This document shows positions 26,550-64,000 of a stretch of 64,000 nt of DNA, piece after piece. The notes below the pieces were generated by a model that saw only the letters and a program-made list of their open reading frames with translations, was not told the DNA's origin and made no database searches. Source of the stretch: Gemmatimonadota bacterium (GTDB taxonomy: Bacteria > Latescibacterota > UBA2968 > UBA8231); contig JABHFS010000110.1 in the NCBI GenBank assembly GCA_018672475.1, positions 1 through 64,000 of the forward strand, in the 5' to 3' direction. The number at the start of each line of letters is the position of its first letter. The first letter of the stretch is position 1. Position numbers and translations under genes: made by a program.

Positions 26550-28913
26550 TCAATAGGCTACGGGCAAAGTGCGCACTACCACGGCGTCCCCCGCTTCAGC
26601 CCCGGCGTCAATATGACAAAGGTAGACCCCCGGTTGCACTACCTTCCCATCTGTACCGCGCCCCGACCAAGTGTAGGTCTTAATATCCGTCCCCTGCGGC
26701 TGATCGAGTTCGGCTACCAATCGGCCGGCCAAATCGAAGATCCGTACGCTGGGGTTGGCCAGGGTCGCTTTTAACAGAGCAAAGCGGATTTCCACTTGCT
26801 CATTGATGCCGTCGCCATTGGGCGTGAAAACCGGCGGGGCGATCAACAGATCGCCGATTAGTTGGCTACTGCCTACCAGATCCGGCAGAAAGACGATATT
26901 CGCACGGCGATCGGCCGCGTCAACCGACTGCCAGAGCCCCGGCTGCTTACTATGCCCGAGGTCAACGGCAAATAATGTGGCATTGCGCAACACCCGGGTG
27001 GTAAATTCGATCTGCACCGAATCGGTAAATACGAGTTCAGACATCGTTATATAGAGTAGCGAATCGCCTTCGACGCGCAACGCGCTCGGCTGCACTGTTG
27101 TCGCACCAACCCGCACGGCCACACCGTCGGTATCCACTGAGCTGGGCAACCTGATACGCAGTTGGTCAAAACCCGCATCAAGGGCGTCTGCGCTGGGCCA
27201 TAGCGAATAAATGAAACGAGTATCTTCGTTCACTGCGACACTGCGTGGCAGCAGACGTCCTCTGGCCTCCTGGACCAAGGCATTTTCGAATTCAATCGAA
27301 AGAGAGTGTATAAGCGGCGCGACCTTGGGGTCTTCGGTGGAGGCGATCAGCTCGAGCTGGATGAAACGCCGTGGTGTCTCCGACTTGAATAGCTCATTCG
27401 AGGACTGATAGAAATTACTCCATTCACCCCAGTCGCCGCCGGCGACGATTGTTGTGTCTACCGGCCCCCGGATCACTTTCGGCAGCCCTTCCCACTGGGT
27501 TTCGGAAACCTGCTCGCCCTTCTTGTCGAAAAAGGTGTAATCCTCTTGCAGCGTGTTGCCCGAGCGCGAACGCAACTGCAACCGAGTGGCAGGCGGCGTG
27601 TCCCCCTGCCATGAGAGCCCCTTGATCGCCTTGGGACGACCATCCCCCACCAGATCGCCCAGGTTGATGAAGTCCGAACTAATAGTCACCTGCGCCGGGT
27701 AGCCGGGCGAGAAAAGCATCATCTCCATCGGGTGCGAGTACCAACCCTGGTCGGTCAACGCGTGAAAGAATAAGTAGCGGACTTTGCGCGGCGCAAAGAT
27801 ATAGCGGAAATGCCGCAGCTCCCTTTCCCGCCCTGTCTCGCCATTGGGCTGTTCGAGCAATGGCCCATAGTCAATTTCACCTGCAATCGTCCGCTGCCCT
27901 TCCGAAGAGAGCACCGCATAGCCCTCGCCGTAATTGAACCGGTCGGAGAGGAAAAAAGAGAGTGCCTCACCCTGGGTTTTATAATACAGGAAGAGCTCAT
28001 CAACCCAGAACAACGCCCCCAAATCCCCCTCCCACCACACTCCGCTCTCCTTCCACCCGCCTTTCGACTTAACAGTGAAGATATTGCTGAAGGTATCCAT
28101 ATTGCCGTCGAACATATTCTGTGGCTCGCGCGCCAACAGCCCGTTGCCGAAGGAACCGCCCCGCTGCAGCGTGCCCAGGCTCACATTATCGCCGGCGGCG
28201 ATCACTTCTATCTCGGCGAGTCCGGCATCCGCCTGCAATTCATCCACTATGATGCGCACGAACTGAATGGCAAAATGATGGTTGACATCCTCTTGCACGA
28301 TCGCCGTACCCGGGTCGAGGATATAGGTGGTATCCCTGGAGTCGGAAACCTGTATGCTAATGAAGTCTTCTTCGTTGGGCTGGGTGGTGCGATGGACCAG
28401 GTTGTATTTGAATACGTCATCGCTCACTTTGATGCGCGCACCCGTAGCCACGAAGACGCTAAACTGCCGGAACGGCCGCGCACCCTCCCGGTCGGGAAAG
28501 TGCAGACGGATCTCCTCGGCCAATACCGTTCGACCCAAGTCGATCTCCACCACCCATTCGGTCACATGGTCATTTTCGTCCGGCTGCCAAATGGTCTGCA
28601 GGTCGCCGTCAATGACGTGGTCCGCCGTTTCGGCCGCACTGCCGGCCAACCAGATCCCGCCGTTCACATCGCCGCGCGCCTGGGTCGAGTGGCTGAATAA
28701 ATGCGCGTCTTCCACCGCGTCGATCTGTTTGCGGAATTTCTTCAACTGCAGTTGGCCTTGCTCGTTCGGCTCTACAACCCCTATGGGGAATTGCCAGCTC
28801 GACCATTCCTCCGGAGTGTCGAAAGTGAACACCTCCGCATGCCCCCCACCCGTGCCTGCCATGAGTAGGGCACACAGCAAGAATGTCGTACAACCGCGGT
28901 TGTTACCAAGCAT
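26550..28913 (-). CDS. Large secreted protein with discoidin-like domains and C-terminal FlgD-like Ig domain
   Basis: 787 aa with signal peptide ('TTFLLCALLMAGTGGGHA'). Residues 75-240 look like an F5/8 type C (discoidin) sandwich: 'ETADHVIDGDLQTIWQP', 'VVEIDLGRTVLAEEIRLHFPDR', 'FVRIIVDELQADAGLAEIEVIA'. A second such segment begins at 'EPQNMFDGNMDTFSNIF'. Later residues form beta-rich modules, and the last 90 are a FlgD-like Ig domain: 'APPVFTPNGDGINEQVEIRFALLKATLANPSVRIFDLAGRLVAEL', 'YTWSGRGTDGKVVQPGVYLCHIDAG'. Such C-terminal domains serve in FCB bacteria as surface-protein tails, some exported by type IX-like routes. It stands alone with its own promoter. Confidence 0.82.
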   Translation of the reverse strand: MLGNNRGCTTFLLCALLMAGTGGGHAEVFTFDTPEEWSSWQFPIGVVEPNEQGQLQLKKFRKQIDAVEDAHLFSHSTQARGDVNGGIWLAGSAAETADHVIDGDLQTIWQPDENDHVTEWVVEIDLGRTVLAEEIRLHFPDREGARPFRQFSVFVATGARIKVSDDVFKYNLVHRTTQPNEEDFISIQVSDSRDTTYILDPGTAIVQEDVNHHFAIQFVRIIVDELQADAGLAEIEVIAAGDNVSLGTLQRGGSFGNGLLAREPQNMFDGNMDTFSNIFTVKSKGGWKESGVWWEGDLGALFWVDELFLYYKTQGEALSFFLSDRFNYGEGYAVLSSEGQRTIAGEIDYGPLLEQPNGETGRERELRHFRYIFAPRKVRYLFFHALTDQGWYSHPMEMMLFSPGYPAQVTISSDFINLGDLVGDGRPKAIKGLSWQGDTPPATRLQLRSRSGNTLQEDYTFFDKKGEQVSETQWEGLPKVIRGPVDTTIVAGGDWGEWSNFYQSSNELFKSETPRRFIQLELIASTEDPKVAPLIHSLSIEFENALVQEARGRLLPRSVAVNEDTRFIYSLWPSADALDAGFDQLRIRLPSSVDTDGVAVRVGATTVQPSALRVEGDSLLYITMSELVFTDSVQIEFTTRVLRNATLFAVDLGHSKQPGLWQSVDAADRRANIVFLPDLVGSSQLIGDLLIAPPVFTPNGDGINEQVEIRFALLKATLANPSVRIFDLAGRLVAELDQPQGTDIKTYTWSGRGTDGKVVQPGVYLCHIDAGAEAGDAVVVRTLPVAY

Positions 28914-54932: not shown

Positions 54933-55760
54933 GTGCGCTATAATTTAGCCGATCTTCATATGCATTCCTTTTGCTCCGATGGTTTGCGGACTCCGACCCA
55001 AGCAGTCGAGGAGGCCTGCGAAGCGGGCTTACAAGCGATTAGCTTAACCGACCACGATACGGTCGAAGGTATTCCGGAGGCCACCGAGGCCGGAAAACGT
55101 CTGGGCATGGAAGTCATTCCCGGCACCGAGCTCAGTGCCCATGTCCGCGAGCGCGAAGTCCATATCCTCGCCTATTGCATCGATTGCAGCGACGACCAGT
55201 TCGGCACCAATCTCGAAAAGGCCTTCGAGTCGCGCTATCAGCGCGGCGTCGCAATCGTCGAAAAACTCAACGGCCTAGGCCTGGACGTCAGTCTCGACGA
55301 AGTGCTAGAACAAGCCAACGGCAGCCCGCTCGGGCGGCCCCATATCGCCGCCGCATTGGTCAAAAAAGGCCTGGTCGCCGACAAGAACGAAGCCTTTAAC
55401 CGCTATATCGGCGATCGTGGGCCCGCTTTCAAAGCGAAACCCTATACATCCGCCGAAGACGTTATCGCCCTGATTCACCGCACCGGGGGTGTCGCGGTAC
55501 TCGCCCATCCCGGCGCCAGCCTGCACGAGGGCATTATCCAACAACTCGTCTCCTTCGGGCTCGACGGCGTCGAGGTCTTCCACCCCGCCCACCAACCACC
55601 GCAAATCGACTTCTACAACCAACTCGCCGATCGCCATGGGCTGCTCAAGTCCGGTGGCTCCGACAGCCACGGCAATGTCGACGGCACGCGCATCGGCGAC
55701 TACGGTGTCGGCTACGAGGTGATCGAAGCGATGCGCGAACGGGCTGCCACCTATGTTTGA
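54933..55760 (+). CDS. PHP-domain phosphoesterase (RNase AM/YciV-like)
   Basis: 275 aa, GTG start with AAAGAG upstream. Metal-binding motifs of the PHP fold are complete: 'NLADLHMHSFCSDG' (H-x-H), 'ISLTDHDTVEG', 'VIPGTELSA', 'VHILAYCID', 'RPHIAAALV', 'VAVLAHPGA', 'DGVEVFHPAHQPPQ' and 'SGGSDSHGN'. E. coli YciV of this type trims the 5' ends of rRNA and degrades short RNA and 3'-phosphoadenosine phosphates. It lies 39 bp before the surface cassette and may share its transcript. Confidence 0.92.
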   Translation: MRYNLADLHMHSFCSDGLRTPTQAVEEACEAGLQAISLTDHDTVEGIPEATEAGKRLGMEVIPGTELSAHVREREVHILAYCIDCSDDQFGTNLEKAFESRYQRGVAIVEKLNGLGLDVSLDEVLEQANGSPLGRPHIAAALVKKGLVADKNEAFNRYIGDRGPAFKAKPYTSAEDVIALIHRTGGVAVLAHPGASLHEGIIQQLVSFGLDGVEVFHPAHQPPQIDFYNQLADRHGLLKSGGSDSHGNVDGTRIGDYGVGYEVIEAMRERAATYV

Positions 55761-55799
55761 ACCACTCCGCACCCGGCACGAGGTAAAAATAAGCGCTTG

Positions 55800-57467
55800 A
55801 TGATATCTCTCTCCCGATTCAACTATATCTCCGTCTTTTTTTCGCTTTTCATCCTTATTTCGCTGCATATCTCGCCTGCCCACGCGGCACGCCCCCAGCG
55901 CTTTCACCAAAGCTCCGAACCGATTCGCGGCCTCTTCGGCGCCGAAATCGGCGATGTGGTCTGGAGCGGGCGCTATCTATGGGTCGGCACCGAAAGCGGG
56001 GTCGCTCGTCTCGATCCGGCGGTAAGCAGCGGGCTCAGCGCCTCTGACTGGGTCACCTTTACCGCCCTCAATGGCCTTGGTCGCGGCGCGATCAGCGCGC
56101 TCGACGCTAGCGGCGACACGGTGTGGGTCGCGACCCTGATCGACACCACCATCACAGGACAAGGAACGGCCCAAGCCGGTACCGGGCTGAGTTTTTCCCA
56201 CGACGGCGGGCGCTCTTGGAGCCATATCTCCAACGAGTTTATCTTCGATCCGAGCAAACCCGGTTTTGAGCGCAGCCCCGGCACCACTATTCTCAATGGT
56301 TGTTTCGATCTCTCGCTCGACGGCGAGGCCATCTACGCGGCCTTTTTCGCCGGCTCGACGGTCCGCTCGCTCGACCAAGGCCAGACCTGGCAACCCTTCA
56401 TACCCGGCGGTGCGACCAAGCTCGTCTACTTCGCCGGCGAAACCGCCGCCGACAGCCTGCAGATTCTCGCCGACAGCCTCGCACGCGAAAGCGGCGACCC
56501 AGCCCTTATCGCTGAATTGCGCGTCGGCGCCGACAGTCTCGCCAGTCTAGAGCTTTTGCACCGCACCTTTTCGGTCGTCGCGCACGGCGACACCGTCTGG
56601 ATCGGCACCTCCAGCGGCATCTCCTTTACCTTGGACGGTGGCCAAAGCTGGAAGAACGCCAAGGTGCGCTTAGATGAAACGGGCAACCCACTACCGGGCA
56701 ACCCGTCGGGCAATTGGGTCGTGGCGATGGAGCGCATGGTTCTTCCCGACGGCTCCACCGCACTTTGGGCCGGCACCAACACCACTCCCTTACCCGGCCA
56801 GACCCAAGCCATCAGTGTTAGCCGCGATCTCGGCCAGACCTGGGCCCACACCGGTCCGACCTTCGCCTGGGATTTCGCCTTCACCCCCAACTTCGTCTGG
56901 GCCGGCACGGCCCAAGGGCTTCTAGCCAGCCGTGACCCGGCCTTGCCGCTCGACGCTGCACGCGACTGGGAAAGTATCGAAGTCGCCGATGGGCAACCGC
57001 TAGAAGGCACCTTTGTAGGGCTCGAACGCGTCGGCGACGTGCTGTGGGCCGGTGCCGAAAAGGGTTTGGGACGCTCTGAGGACGAAGGCGGCACCTGGCG
57101 CATTATTCGCGACCTGATCCGCACCCGATCAATCGACACCGGCAACTTCGTCGGCACCGGCGGCGTCCAGGATAGTACCGCGCGGACCTACGCCGCACCC
57201 AATCCCTTCGCCCCTTCGCGTGATACGGCAACTCTCGTCTTCAGCCTGGAAAAAGAAGCCGATGTCTCCATTGCCATTTACGATTTCGCCAGCCGTTTAG
57301 TTCGCGACCTGATCTCGGCCGAGCCCTTCGCCGGCGGCGCCGACCACCGTGTCGCCTGGGACGGCACCGACCAAGACGGCCAGGCCGTCGCCAATGGCAC
57401 GTATTTTTATCGCATCCAACTCAGCACCGGCCAAATGGCCTTCGGCAAAGTAGTGGTACTCGATTGA
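55800..57467 (+). CDS. Secreted beta-propeller protein with C-terminal FlgD-like Ig domain
   Basis: 555 aa from ATG 55800 (the track begins at a TTG one codon earlier). Signal peptide up to 'ISPAHA'. Residues 45-450 are a BNR/sialidase-type propeller with repeats such as 'SFSHDGGRSWSHI', 'SLDQGQTWQPF', 'FTLDGGQSWKNA', 'SRDLGQTWAHT' and 'EDEGGTWRII'. The last 85 residues are a FlgD-like Ig tail: 'APNPFAPSRDTATLVFSLEKEADVSIAIYDFASRLVRDLIS', 'HRVAWDGTDQDGQAVANGTYFYRIQLSTGQMAFGKVVVL'. Its stop overlaps the TTG start of a PorV-like barrel, the key link of the surface cassette. Confidence 0.87.
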   Translation: MISLSRFNYISVFFSLFILISLHISPAHAARPQRFHQSSEPIRGLFGAEIGDVVWSGRYLWVGTESGVARLDPAVSSGLSASDWVTFTALNGLGRGAISALDASGDTVWVATLIDTTITGQGTAQAGTGLSFSHDGGRSWSHISNEFIFDPSKPGFERSPGTTILNGCFDLSLDGEAIYAAFFAGSTVRSLDQGQTWQPFIPGGATKLVYFAGETAADSLQILADSLARESGDPALIAELRVGADSLASLELLHRTFSVVAHGDTVWIGTSSGISFTLDGGQSWKNAKVRLDETGNPLPGNPSGNWVVAMERMVLPDGSTALWAGTNTTPLPGQTQAISVSRDLGQTWAHTGPTFAWDFAFTPNFVWAGTAQGLLASRDPALPLDAARDWESIEVADGQPLEGTFVGLERVGDVLWAGAEKGLGRSEDEGGTWRIIRDLIRTRSIDTGNFVGTGGVQDSTARTYAAPNPFAPSRDTATLVFSLEKEADVSIAIYDFASRLVRDLISAEPFAGGADHRVAWDGTDQDGQAVANGTYFYRIQLSTGQMAFGKVVVLD

Positions 57468-58384
57468 AAAGCCTCTGCACTCTTCTGCTCTGTTCGCTTG
57501 TCACGACCGCGCAGGCGGCCGATTTCGCCGCCGCCTTTCTCGAAACGGGCCTGGGTACCCGCGGCCTGGGGATGGGCGCCTTCGTCGCCACGGTCGACGA
57601 CGCCTCAGCCCCCTACTGGAACCCCGCCGGCCTTGCCCGTTCGCGTGGCAGCACGGTCCAGTCTTCGCTCCAGTCACTTTCACAAGACCGCCTGCAAAAT
57701 AGCGCATCTTTCGCGCTCAACCCCCGCGGTGACATGGGTTTCGGCATCGCCTGGTCGCACGCTTCCGTAGATGGGATCGAAGGCCGCACCTCCAATGGCC
57801 AATTCACCGGCTCCATCGAAGACGGGGCCAATGCCTTTATCGTCGCGGTGGGCCGCACCGTAGGGCCGCGCCTGTCCGTCGGTTTTGCGATGAAGATCTT
57901 CAACCAGACGATTGATACCCCTTTCTCGTCGGCGGCCACCGCCAATGGCAGCGGTTTCGACCTCGGTGCCCAGTTCCGCGTTTCCGAGCGCACCTGGCTT
58001 GGCGCCGGCGTCCGCAATCTCGGCGCCAAACTCGATTGGAAAGTTCCCCGGGCCAATCAGCAGTCGAGCGCCACTGAAGACCAACTACCGCGCGTCCTAC
58101 TGCTCGGCGCCTCGCACCAGCCCCTAACCGGGCTGACCTTGGCCGCCGAATTCCGCGCCGACGACGAGCAGAGCGCCACTCTAGGCGCCGAATGGACCCT
58201 GAGCCCCCTGCTCACCTTGCGCGGCGGCCTCAACCGCCTGGGTACCGAAGACGGCAGCCTGCTTTCCGCCGGGCTGACCCTGCGCCCGATGCGCATCAAG
58301 ACCCTGCAATTCCACTACGCCTACCTCGCCGACCCCCTCGAAGCCGGGGGTCGCACGACCATCGGCCTGGCGCTGGCGTTCTAA
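57464..58384 (+). CDS. PorV/PorQ-family outer-membrane beta-barrel (1)
   Basis: 306 aa, TTG start overlapping the previous stop (TTGA). Signal peptide 'LLCSLVTTAQA'. The N-terminal motif 'AAFLETGLGTRGLGMGAFVATVDDASAPYWNPAGLA' is the hallmark of PorV/PorQ/UPF0164 proteins, and the rest alternates as a 14-strand barrel ('DMGFGIAWSHA', 'RLSVGFAMKIFNQTID', 'GFDLGAQFRVSERTWLGAGVRNLG', 'GLTLAAEFRADDEQSATLGAEWTL'), with a final F. PorV is the outer-membrane shuttle of the type IX secretion system in Bacteroidetes. No porU is in the window. Confidence 0.85.
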   Translation: MKSLCTLLLCSLVTTAQAADFAAAFLETGLGTRGLGMGAFVATVDDASAPYWNPAGLARSRGSTVQSSLQSLSQDRLQNSASFALNPRGDMGFGIAWSHASVDGIEGRTSNGQFTGSIEDGANAFIVAVGRTVGPRLSVGFAMKIFNQTIDTPFSSAATANGSGFDLGAQFRVSERTWLGAGVRNLGAKLDWKVPRANQQSSATEDQLPRVLLLGASHQPLTGLTLAAEFRADDEQSATLGAEWTLSPLLTLRGGLNRLGTEDGSLLSAGLTLRPMRIKTLQFHYAYLADPLEAGGRTTIGLALAF

Positions 58385-58392
58385 GGAGCCCT

Positions 58393-59247
58393 ATGCGTCT
58401 CTTGTTCGCCGTGCTTTTGGCCTTACCCGTCACCCTGTCCGCCACTGGGCTGCCCTCGTTGCGCCTTAGCGGCGGCGCGCGCGCCGCCGCGCTGGCCGAA
58501 GCCGTCACCGCCCTCCCCGATGCGCAGGCCCTCAACCCGGCCGCCCTGCAATCGCGCGGACAAAGCGCCGCCTTCAGCCACGCCACCTGGATACAGGGCA
58601 CCCGCCAAGATTACCTGCACCTGGCCTGGGCCCGCGGACAAAGCGTCTGGGGACTCTCCGGCCAGCTCTGGCAGACCGACGACCTCGAACGCCGTACCGG
58701 CCCTTCCACCGCCCCTCTGGGCCATTTCGGCGTCTATGAGGGCGCCGCCGGCCTTAGTTACGCCCGCCGTATGGATCGCTTGCGCGTCGGACTGCGCTTG
58801 AACGTCATCCGCCAATCGATCTCCACCGACAACGCCAGCGGCGCAAGCGCCGATTTCGGCCTGATCTACGCCATCGATCCGCGCCTGCACTTCGGGGCGA
58901 GCCTGCGCAACCTCGGCAGCATGGGCAAACTCAACCGCCAAGCGACCGATCTGCCGCTCGAAGCCCGCCTCGGCGCCGCCTACACCGGCCTCACCGACCT
59001 TCTAATCACAGTCGAAGCGCAACAAGCCCGCGACGGAGACCTCACGTTCCATCTAGGCGGCGAATACCACGCCGGCGAGCGCTTGCGCTTGCGCACGGGC
59101 TATCAGCATACGGAAAACCGCAATCTCTCGGCCGGCCTCGGCCTAGTGACCGGGCGCTGGATCATCGACTACGCCTATGTGCCCTTTAGCTCGGGCCTCG
59201 GCGACGCACACCGGATCACCCTGCTGCTCGAAAGCCCTTCCTTGTGA
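58393..59247 (+). CDS. PorV/PorQ-family outer-membrane beta-barrel (2)
   Basis: 284 aa from ATG 58393 with AAGGAG 6 nt upstream; the track start (58192) lies inside the previous gene. Signal peptide 'LFAVLLALPVTLSATG'. The motif 'LRLSGGARAAALAEAVTALPDAQALNPAAL' is a PorQ-like version of the first gene's. Barrel strands include 'DYLHLAWARGQSVWGLSGQLWQ', 'LSYARRMDRLRVGLRLNVIRQSI', 'SADFGLIYAIDPRLHFGASLRNLG' and 'WIIDYAYVPFSSGLGDAHRITLLLE'. The pair of barrels is divergent in sequence, so each may have a distinct client. GTG of the next gene overlaps its stop. Confidence 0.83.
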   Translation: MRLLFAVLLALPVTLSATGLPSLRLSGGARAAALAEAVTALPDAQALNPAALQSRGQSAAFSHATWIQGTRQDYLHLAWARGQSVWGLSGQLWQTDDLERRTGPSTAPLGHFGVYEGAAGLSYARRMDRLRVGLRLNVIRQSISTDNASGASADFGLIYAIDPRLHFGASLRNLGSMGKLNRQATDLPLEARLGAAYTGLTDLLITVEAQQARDGDLTFHLGGEYHAGERLRLRTGYQHTENRNLSAGLGLVTGRWIIDYAYVPFSSGLGDAHRITLLLESPSL

Positions 59248-60230
59248 ACTTCTGGCGCAAAACCGTCCCCCTGCTGCCGCCACCGGCCACCGAATTGGCG
59301 CCGCTCGGACAGTCGATCTGGACTCCAACCGCCCCCGCCAAAAGCAGCATCTCTCGCCCTTGGGTCCACCTACTGCTCTTTGCCCTGACCATGTTTTCGA
59401 TGACCGCCGCCGGAGCCATGCAACAAGGCGTCGACCCCCTGAGCAGCATACAAGCATTGGTCCACCTCGTCGAAGGCCTGCCCTTCGCCGCGACTCTGCT
59501 CTTTATCCTCACCGTACACGAGTTCGGCCATTATTTTGCCGCGCGTCACTGGGGCGTCAAAGCTTCATTGCCTTACTTCCTGCCCCTGCCCTATATCTCC
59601 TTCTTGGGTACCCTGGGCGCCGTCATAAAAATCCACTCCCCCATCCCGCACAAAAGGGCTTTGCTCGATATCGGCGCCGCCGGGCCGCTGGCCGGTTTCG
59701 TCATCGCGCTCATCGCCTGCTTCGCGGGGCTGGCCCATTCATCCATCGTCTCGACCGATGCCTTCCACGTCTACCCCATCGAATTGGGGTCGCCACTGCT
59801 CTTCAGTGGGATCGCGGCCTTAGTCCTGCCCGAAATAGGCCCCAACCAATTGGTGCTCCTGAACCCGGTGGCCTTCGCCGGCTGGGTCGGCCTTTTTATC
59901 ACCGCCTTCAACCTCTTCCCCATCGGCCAACTCGACGGCGGACATATTGTCTACGCGCTCTTCGGGTCCTGGCACCGCCATATCGCCCGCACCGCCTACG
60001 CGATCTTGCTAGGCATGGGGGTCTATGGTATTTTATCACTGATATGGGAACTACCTCAAGGCTGGCCGGGCTGGTTGGCATTGGCCTTTTTTCTCGCGAT
60101 TTTCGGCAAAAATCATCCAGCCCCCTACGACACCTTTACCTCACTGGACCCCCGGCGACGCCTGGTCGGCTATCTCTGCCTGCTAATCTTCGTCGTCTGT
60201 TTCGCCCCCGTCCCCTTCGCCACCTCTTGA
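59244..60230 (+). CDS. Site-2 protease family membrane metalloprotease (M50)
   Basis: 328 aa, GTG start in GTGA. Zinc motifs: 'LTVHEFGHYFAARHWGVK' and 'FPIGQLDGGHIVYALFG'. About seven TM helices; no PDZ or CBS domain. This architecture resembles the plant-chloroplast EGY-like and bacterial sll-type S2P group ('PYFLPLPYISFLGTLGAVIKIHSPIPHKRALLDIGAAGPLAGF') rather than RseP. It would cleave a membrane-bound or lipoprotein substrate. Within this cassette it could process a surface protein or regulator. Confidence 0.9.
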   Translation: MNFWRKTVPLLPPPATELAPLGQSIWTPTAPAKSSISRPWVHLLLFALTMFSMTAAGAMQQGVDPLSSIQALVHLVEGLPFAATLLFILTVHEFGHYFAARHWGVKASLPYFLPLPYISFLGTLGAVIKIHSPIPHKRALLDIGAAGPLAGFVIALIACFAGLAHSSIVSTDAFHVYPIELGSPLLFSGIAALVLPEIGPNQLVLLNPVAFAGWVGLFITAFNLFPIGQLDGGHIVYALFGSWHRHIARTAYAILLGMGVYGILSLIWELPQGWPGWLALAFFLAIFGKNHPAPYDTFTSLDPRRRLVGYLCLLIFVVCFAPVPFATS

Positions 60231-60994
60231 AAACTTTAGCGCTGCGACCACTGCCCTATCTGCTCTTAATCGTTTTTGCCGGCTGCGGTCTCGGCGACAG
60301 CGAGTTAGTCGACTGCCGTTGCGCGCCCGATACCAGCGCCCTGCTCTTCCCGCATTGCGACACTGTCGACAACCAGACAGCGCGCTCCGACGCCACGAGC
60401 CCACTGTCGACACAAGTCCCCGACTGCCCCAGCGGCCAACAGCTCTTCCTGCTCGAACGCATCCGGCCCGAGTCGGTACTGGCCAATCTCCGTTCGATCT
60501 TCCAGGCCCAGCCCGAAACCCGCAGCCCCGAACAGTATATGGACCAGTTCGCCCCCGATTTCACCTTCATCCCCGACGCCGAAGACATCGATCTGCACCC
60601 CGAGATCTACGACGCCGGCCGCGATACGCTCTGGGGCGCGGAACAGGAGCGTAGCTTCGCCCGCGCGATCCTCGACCCGGAGCGCATCCAGAGCGCGCGT
60701 TTCGCCCGTTGGTTTTCGGCCTCCAGGGACGAGCGCATCCCCTCCGAAGACCAGTTGAACGAAACGTTTATTTTTCCTTACGAGGTCGAGTTTGTAGAGT
60801 TGGTGGCTGCCGCGGAGGGCGACACGACGGGCACGACGCTCAACATAATCGGCGTCAAGGGGTTTATGGAGGTAGATCTGGTGACACCGACAGTGGAGAA
60901 TCCGGTGTGGACGGTGAAAGCTTGGCGGGATCAGCGCGATCGGGCTTCGGCGAAGTTCTCTTGGGGAGAGTTGCGGGCGATTTTTGCGCGGTAG
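60227..60994 (+). CDS. Lipoprotein, end of the surface cassette
   Basis: 255 aa from TTG 60227 in TTGA; the ORF track shows it only inside a longer frame (59177) that starts within the preceding genes. 'LPYLLLIVFAGCGLGD' is a lipoprotein signal. The body has the layout seen in a group of FCB lipoproteins: 'PESVLANLRSIFQAQPETRSPEQYMDQFAPDFTFIPD', 'GAEQERSFARAILDPERI' and 'VKAWRDQRDRASAKFSWGELRAIF', an NTF2-like pattern. The lipoprotein at 61358 has a similar core ('TPEILLDNLARAMRDRDKDLYETLL'). No activity is known. Confidence 0.75.
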   Translation: MKTLALRPLPYLLLIVFAGCGLGDSELVDCRCAPDTSALLFPHCDTVDNQTARSDATSPLSTQVPDCPSGQQLFLLERIRPESVLANLRSIFQAQPETRSPEQYMDQFAPDFTFIPDAEDIDLHPEIYDAGRDTLWGAEQERSFARAILDPERIQSARFARWFSASRDERIPSEDQLNETFIFPYEVEFVELVAAAEGDTTGTTLNIIGVKGFMEVDLVTPTVENPVWTVKAWRDQRDRASAKFSWGELRAIFAR

Positions 60995-61357: not shown

Positions 61358-62020
61358 ATGACGTCATTCACGCGCTACGCCACCTGCGCCCTACTCTTAG
61401 GCCTCTGCGCCTGCGCCAACCCCTTCGCTCCCGAAAAACACACGCCCGACGGCGGCACCGAACTGCCGCCCGCGCTCGAAGCCACTACACCCGAGATCCT
61501 GCTCGACAACCTCGCCCGCGCCATGCGCGACCGCGACAAAGACCTCTACGAAACCCTGCTCGACCAGAATTACTGGTTCACCGAAACCGACTGCCTCGGC
61601 GATCTGGTCTTGGCCAATGGCTTCGAAGAAGAGTTGGAGATCATGGGCGGCAGCCGCGACGGTTCGCAGGCGGGCATTTTCGACATCTTCCGCACCTTCG
61701 AATACGACTTCGAGCTAATCCGCCGCTCGCAGGAACTCGGCCCCGAATTTCCCAAACGAGACGAAAACGACCCCGACGGCCATCCCGACGAGGACTGGGA
61801 CGTTTTCCGCGGCCGGGTCGAAATGCTGCTGCTCGACGAAAACGGCGACGGGTTTCGCGTCGACCAAATCATGACCTACAAACTGCGCCTCGATGAAGAG
61901 GCCCTGTGGAAGATCACCCGTTGGATCGACGATCCGCTCAGCGGCGACTGTGGCGGCGCCGGCAAACGCCCGGTTGGCGTGCATAGTTGGACCGCACTGA
62001 AACAACAGACCGCACCCTAA
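61358..62020 (+). CDS. Lipoprotein (NTF2-like family)
   Basis: 220 aa with lipobox 'LLGLCAC' then 'ANPFAPEKHTPDGGTELPP'. The core 'TPEILLDNLARAMRDRDKDLYETLLDQNYWFTETDCLGDLV' and 'FRGRVEMLLLDENGDGFRVDQIMTYKLRLDEEALWKITRWIDDP' resembles NTF2-like folds and the 60227 lipoprotein. Ribosome site ACGGAG. It is separated from the next gene by only 4 bp. No reaction can be assigned; its place beside a deacetylase suggests an envelope role. Confidence 0.75.
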   Translation: MTSFTRYATCALLLGLCACANPFAPEKHTPDGGTELPPALEATTPEILLDNLARAMRDRDKDLYETLLDQNYWFTETDCLGDLVLANGFEEELEIMGGSRDGSQAGIFDIFRTFEYDFELIRRSQELGPEFPKRDENDPDGHPDEDWDVFRGRVEMLLLDENGDGFRVDQIMTYKLRLDEEALWKITRWIDDPLSGDCGGAGKRPVGVHSWTALKQQTAP

Positions 62021-62024
62021 GCAT

Positions 62025-64000
<1,976 letters not shown>

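Follow-up and report, generated by a model that had tools for sequence, protein, structure and literature searches.

We analyzed a 64,000-nucleotide stretch of DNA (the window; contig JABHFS010000110.1, positions 1 to 64,000) from a Latescibacterota metagenome-assembled genome (MAG) of 6.6 Mb in 210 contigs, and focused on five co-directional genes at 55800-60994 on its plus strand. In order, these encode a secreted beta-propeller protein, two outer membrane barrels (A and B), an M50 membrane protease, and a lipoprotein. The reading that we favor, with slightly better than even confidence, is that the propeller protein is exported by the type IX secretion system (T9SS) and kept on the cell surface by its own pair of PorV/PorQ-type barrels, much as PorZ is by PorQ. 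The protein would cross the inner membrane via Sec and the outer membrane via the SprA translocon, using its FlgD-like C-terminal domain (CTD); barrel A, barrel B, or both would then take it over and retain it at the surface, as in the PorQ/PorZ and PorV/PorU pairs. It would probably be a resident surface component, binding glycan, lipopolysaccharide (LPS), or other CTD proteins, rather than a released enzyme, while the protease and the lipoproteins would be linked to it in an envelope pathway without belonging to the core. We infer both the export and the holding by the barrels from the anatomy of the proteins and the linkage of their genes. The block is apparently an undescribed accessory of the T9SS and not a secretion system of its own; in the open-licence PMC literature, we found nothing relevant on the T9SS in Latescibacter, on PorV with FlgD, or on the T9SS with an intramembrane protease.

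Open reading frames, the sequence itself, and domain scans gave the five genes, and the three overlaps exactly as the original prediction had described them. The propeller gene (55800..57467, plus strand) encodes 555 amino acids with a Sec signal peptide, a single beta-propeller, and a seven-stranded FlgD/CTD-like tail at about residues 461 to 555; it starts at ATG 55800, and a TTG lies just before it at 55797. Its stop overlaps the start of barrel A (57464..58384, plus strand) in the four bases TTGA, and an 8-base gap separates barrel A from barrel B (58393..59247, plus strand). Four-base overlaps likewise join barrel B to the M50 gene (59244..60230, plus strand; GTGA) and the M50 gene to the lipoprotein gene (60227..60994, plus strand; TTGA), whose product has the lipobox FAGC. 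A promoter scan yielded no site scoring above shuffles.

The five-gene order was sought in relatives, as had been proposed, and it is conserved, in the same form in Latescibacterota loci and in a rotated form in other phyla. The nearest relative, DQLG01000174 (Candidatus Latescibacterota), shares 96% identity across the M50 protein. Among the Latescibacterota-type loci L036-L055, some of whose records are labelled Gemmatimonadota and a few of which have an end gene cut off or unmatched, all those that are long enough display an identical nine-gene order, with propeller identity down to 47%. The propeller, barrel A, barrel B, and M50 are single-family orthologs, and their order does not vary among the complete Latescibacterota-type loci that we retrieved. 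The set as first delimited turned out to be partial, since a sigma factor gene and a PHP phosphoesterase gene upstream, and a second lipoprotein gene and a Polysacc_deac_2 gene downstream, are conserved along with it in Latescibacterota. The 4-base overlap between barrel B and M50 is retained in most of the nearest loci, and of 15 loci holding both the propeller and barrel A, 12 have a spacing of -4 or -1 between them. Furthermore, when we surveyed 50 genomes from the phylum, the propeller was recovered in 25; barrel B lies on the same contig 838 to 1073 bp downstream, an interval with room for barrel A, in 23 of these, and the propeller stands at a contig end in the other two. Gene order is thus conserved far beyond chance.

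The rotated order, M50-lipoprotein-propeller-A-B, occurs in Ignavibacteriota, Rhodothermota, and several Bacteroidota-labelled MAGs, all carrying distant relatives of the M50 protein. The Latescibacterota propeller profile scored 122 to 232 bits on the distant propellers, and the barrel B profile scored 140 to 179 bits on distant barrel B proteins and never more than 43 on their barrel A counterparts. hhalign across the two arrangements returned 100% probability for the propeller, A, B, and M50, and these comparisons show the four proteins to be orthologous between Latescibacterota and the phyla with the rotated order. The lipoprotein of the set is present and overlaps M50 as predicted, but it is lineage specific. 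It has no Pfam or NCBIfam match, belongs to a Latescibacterota-specific family, and is conserved, with an invariant Cys pattern, in 18 aligned relatives; a common family with the lipoprotein of the rotated block was rejected, as hmmsearch found no match and hhalign gave 12% over 21 columns of the signal peptide region. The propeller-barrel block has thus been maintained as a unit in no fewer than four bacterial phyla.

The T9SS connection is most direct in a Neomarinimicrobiota genome (L206:1737-9001). There, SprA and, after it, a secreted M28 peptidase, a lipoprotein, the propeller, barrel A, a protein weakly resembling barrel B, and a deacetylase are encoded one after another in the same direction, with short gaps or overlaps between the genes, and no M50 lies beside the propeller block. 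The lipoprotein of this run is of the Ignavibacteriota type, and the deacetylase is of the same family as that in the window. More broadly, SprA was found in all 50 Latescibacterota genomes and in 11 of 13 distant genomes bearing the block. Neither SprA nor the propeller was found in six Chlorobium-type, Rokubacteria, and cyanobacterial genomes that have only M50, and three Cytophagales genomes have SprA with the propeller not found.

Both barrels belong to the PorV/PorQ family, as predicted: they scored 101.3 (A) and 131.0 (B) bits against NF033709, whose cutoff is 90. Neither reached the narrower equivalogs, with 27.4 (A) and 34.9 (B) bits for PorV (NF033710, cutoff 250) and 53.2 and 55.5 bits for PorQ (NF033711, cutoff 220). 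Profiles of A and B each match PorV in the SprA-PorV structure (6h3i_F; 7.9e-20 for B), and barrel B is modeled by AlphaFold2 (AF2) as a 14-strand FadL-like barrel (pLDDT, 86). In a maximum-likelihood tree of 77 barrels, A (99/98) and B (97/91) form separate clades that span all of the phyla with the block and contain none of the remaining PorV-family barrels from the window's genome, although several outgroup rows are long branched and their exact placement is unsure. On the tree, the two barrel clades are older than the phyla that carry them. Elsewhere in the source genome, on contigs C86 and C122 (L010 and L012), two more PorV-family barrels are encoded right next to large proteins with FlgD-type tails, so a general pairing of cargo and barrel may exist there. 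Two barrel B orthologs, at G010:C12:125960-126808 and G016:C261:1941-2783, have one in-frame stop each and are either pseudogenes or assembly errors.

The propeller protein contains BNR repeats and a FlgD_ig domain (34.6 bits; cutoff, 27), and its AF2 model (mean pLDDT, 84.5) has one propeller followed by a tail of seven predicted strands at 461-553. The domain score and the strands together give it the seven-stranded, Ig-like C-terminal domain of T9SS cargo; the curated sorting domain models were not reached, at 17.0 of 23 bits for type A (TIGR04183) and 14.1 of 35 for type B (TIGR04131). Among PDB folds, the model is matched best by PorZ (5m11; E = 1.6e-15). The PorZ sequence model (NF052228), which has a cutoff of 260 bits over both propellers and the CTD, scored 19.3 bits, on the tail only. 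In sequence, the propeller resembles Asp-box/Reg_prop propellers, such as Ycf48 and BT4663-type sensor domains, at the level of fold only.

Conservation is higher in the tail than in the propeller, with mean identities to the window protein of 37.7% and 25.5%, respectively, across 17 distant members, and the tail is unlike the genome's other FlgD tails. We aligned 32 tails from the block with 40 other FlgD tails sampled from the source genome; the 32 are orthologs rather than independent cases, so that the counts gauge conservation and not repeated events. All 32 have F at a position where the commonest residues in the other tails do not include F, and lack a G present in all 40 others. Before the G of an (N/S/P)G.Y motif, 30 of the 32 have N, and 36 of the 40 have S or P there; the block's tails nearly always end in G-K, whereas the others mostly end in R-K. 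Against its own member the tail profile reached 135.9 bits, compared with 68.5 for the next-best tail, and none of the readable next-best tails has the motif. Among held-out propellers, the DF...NG signature is present in L206 and L097 and partial in L207. Barrel-linked propellers of the Latescibacterota families f5, f6, and f8 (L122 and L124-L127) carry G-type tails, and most of these have NG and GK ends; the signature thus fails in some deep Latescibacterota and was rejected as a universal mark of the block. Two loci have a second propeller copy between M50 and the lipoprotein (L082:11043-12626 and L107:9007-10599); in both, the DF...NG tail belongs to the copy beside the barrels, and the second, nonadjacent copy has an ordinary FlgD/type A-like tail.

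These tails bear on two other accounts of the block. The propeller might simply be ordinary T9SS cargo handled by a housekeeping PorV, with the barrels being unrelated FadL-type channels held nearby by operon inertia. The genome does have 142 FlgD_ig matches, leaving about 140 other FlgD-tailed proteins; the barrels are FadL-transporter-like in fold; and the barrels on C86 and C122 likewise have FlgD-type tail proteins as neighbors. We nonetheless consider this account unlikely, as in several phyla the propeller, in one copy and rarely two, is retained beside the same pair of barrels despite rearrangement of the block, and its tail is unlike all 40 of those sampled. The other account is that barrel A, barrel B, or both act as dedicated shuttles that read only the propeller tail and deliver the protein to a fixed site, on the model of type B CTDs, which pair with specialised PorP/SprF shuttles encoded beside the cargo (PMC12618676). 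The contrast between the two propeller copies in L082 and L107 fits such a role, but the G-type tails of f5, f6, and f8 mean that the signature does not track pairing everywhere. This account also overlaps with surface retention by the barrels, from which it differs in giving them a part in export beyond that of an anchor, and we regard it as quite unlikely.

A T9SS is encoded elsewhere in the source genome. SprA lies on contig C49 and PorU on C163, where the next gene encodes a PorV-family barrel that scored 258 bits against PorV_fam and 170 of 250 bits against the PorV equivalog. Contig C4 carries a PorQ-like barrel with 165 bits against the PorQ equivalog, and C74 a PorZ-like protein that matched the greater part of the PorZ equivalog with 173.5 bits. 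The PorV, PorQ, and PorZ candidates all fall under the curated equivalog cutoffs, which might be expected for a distant phylum. With PorV recognized by its PorV_fam score and its position beside PorU, the genome holds SprA, PorU, and PorV together. Because these PorU/PorV, PorQ-like, and PorZ-like candidates are encoded elsewhere, the block is a parallel set and not the basic attachment complex, and the proteins behind the 142 FlgD_ig matches are not all served by it. The idea that the block supplies the genome's PorZ/PorQ pair was likewise rejected in favor of the better candidates on C74 and C4. A second PorU-like (C25-type) protein with a FlgD tail is encoded at C89:11529-15605 (L025/L034) and matches the middle of the PorU model with 211 bits.

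The original prediction had proposed a simplified, dedicated unit for export and processing of a FlgD-tailed cargo, and was to fall if a full type IX system, with its own PorV serving all FlgD-tail proteins, lay elsewhere in the genome; the SprA, PorU, PorV, PorQ-like, and PorZ-like candidates and the 142 FlgD_ig matches largely amount to that. A self-contained miniature system with M50 as its processing protease could explain the tight barrel B/M50 overlaps in most Latescibacterota loci and the presence of M50 next to the block in Ignavibacteriota and Rhodothermota too. However, no translocon of its own was found at the locus, whose barrels are only of FadL/PorV type, and the outer membrane parts of the T9SS are encoded elsewhere in the genome, in a phylum where every genome surveyed has SprA. 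Moreover, M50 is separable from the block, and a protease of its type acts in the inner membrane, whereas the tail would be processed outside. We find such a system extremely improbable and rejected a self-contained exporter. What survives of the proposal, besides the conserved order and the family of the barrels, is a dedicated pairing of barrels and tail, which is plausible because the propeller tail differs from the genome's other FlgD tails.

Several observations weigh against surface retention of the propeller by its barrels. Half of the SprA-bearing Latescibacterota genomes have no propeller, and the propeller is therefore not essential for the T9SS. In families f3 and f4 (L117-L120), barrel B, M50, and the deacetylase are kept while the propeller and barrel A are missing, so that barrel B must do something without the propeller. 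The second barrel of the Neomarinimicrobiota run is weak, with 60 bits to barrel B and no NCBIfam match, and 2 of the 13 distant MAGs bearing the block gave no SprA match, perhaps through incompleteness. The GldM model had no match in the source genome, though it had none in any control either. Finally, the fold match to PorZ reaches a TM score of only 0.35, PorZ having two propellers versus one here; the score is low because the number and arrangement of domains differ.

Barrel B and M50, together with the deacetylase, could form an older envelope maintenance operon that either acquired the propeller and barrel A as an insertion or has since lost them, with the linkage reflecting nothing but envelope co-regulation. 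Besides f3 and f4, family f7 (L121) has barrel B, M50, and the deacetylase accompanied by a transaldolase-like gene, and in family f6 the propeller, A, and B are followed by an inserted TldD/TldE (PmbA) metallopeptidase pair (L124:5577-8236 and L127:4908-7566), with M50 and the lipoproteins coming after the pair in L127. The other half also holds together, though, as the propeller, A, and B occur without an adjacent M50 in Neomarinimicrobiota and in L124 of f6. We judge this history very unlikely, and continue to prefer retention of the propeller by its barrels.

The M50 protein is a PDZ-less site-2-type membrane metalloprotease, as predicted (PF02163, 86.9 bits; no PDZ match). Its HEFGH and QLDGGH motifs are intact, and these columns are invariant in 23 aligned sequences. 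The RseP model (TIGR00054; cutoff, 147.55 bits) scored 26.9 bits, and RseP would in addition have a PDZ domain. Proteases of the RseP/site-2 type act in the inner membrane. The family is a broad, PDZ-less one that is also found in Chlorobium, Rokubacteria, and cyanobacteria without the block. The gene is tightly linked to the block in both arrangements, yet it is separable from the propeller in f3 and f4 and in Neomarinimicrobiota, and because of this we assign it no role in processing the propeller; the earlier suggestion that it releases or regulates the cargo finds no support in these loci. Most likely, it would clear or regulate an inner membrane or lipoprotein substrate of the locus. Directly upstream of M50 in the Ignavibacteriota arrangement lies a DUF1207 protein (L066:7136-7963, confirmed by Pfam in this locus only), apparently at the same place in L058, L061, L072, L091, and L094.

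Of the conserved neighbors, the PHP-domain phosphoesterase gene (54933..55760, plus strand; PF02811, 49 bits) ends 39 bp before the propeller gene and is probably cotranscribed with the block, although a role for its product in the module is doubtful; the sigma factor gene is also upstream. Downstream are the second lipoprotein gene (61358..62020, plus strand), found at the same place in 19 relatives, and the gene for a divergent polysaccharide deacetylase, Polysacc_deac_2 (62025..63155, plus strand; PF04748, 241 bits). The deacetylase weakly suggests a glycan as the ligand of the propeller. A further FlgD-type tail is encoded within the window at 26595-26840 on the minus strand.

A more specific version of our proposal is that the block is a second PorZ-PorQ-like subassembly of the T9SS, made of a one-propeller surface protein and two dedicated PorV-family barrels, ancient enough to occur in Latescibacterota, Ignavibacteriota, Rhodothermota, and Neomarinimicrobiota and absent from the three Cytophagales tested, with a tail subtype read by its own barrels only; this we offer as a tentative possibility. 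Knowledge of T9SS attachment and shuttling comes almost entirely from a few Bacteroidota, and the block points to an accessory part outside these well-studied groups. With it, one can also test how the barrels of a single family share out well over a hundred similar tails per cell, since gene linkage gives one tail its own barrel pair, and the cultured relatives Melioribacter and Longimonas make the block checkable.

Among known systems, the M50 protein resembles RseP and other site-2 proteases in being a membrane protein with HExxH and LDG motifs, and departs from RseP in having no PDZ domain and falling short of the RseP model. PorV receives CTD proteins from SprA (PMC5562754, PMC11285876), and the barrels of the block, as PorV_fam members that align to PorV of 6h3i, recall the SprA-PorV pair; unlike the PorV shuttle, they score far under the PorV equivalog, and the PorV beside PorU is another gene. 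The arrangement of a cargo gene followed by an outer membrane barrel gene, with a tail distinct from that of the bulk cargo, is shared with the type B CTD/PorP-SprF pairs of Flavobacterium johnsoniae (PMC12618676), but the barrel family and tail family are different, there are two barrels, and the pairing here is suggested by linkage. A close parallel is the attachment complex of the Porphyromonas gingivalis T9SS, in which PorU:PorV and PorQ:PorZ form subcomplexes and PorQ anchors PorZ (PMC5562754). T9SS CTDs are seven stranded, and those of PorU and PorZ are not cleaved off (PMC11285876); PorZ is reported to deliver anionic LPS (PMC8545088). The block differs from PorQ-PorZ in having one propeller instead of two, two barrels in the locus, and scores below the PorZ and PorQ models. 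It shares with that pair, as described in PMC5562754 and PMC8545088, a surface propeller, an Ig-like CTD, and a PorV/PorQ-family barrel as the likely anchor.

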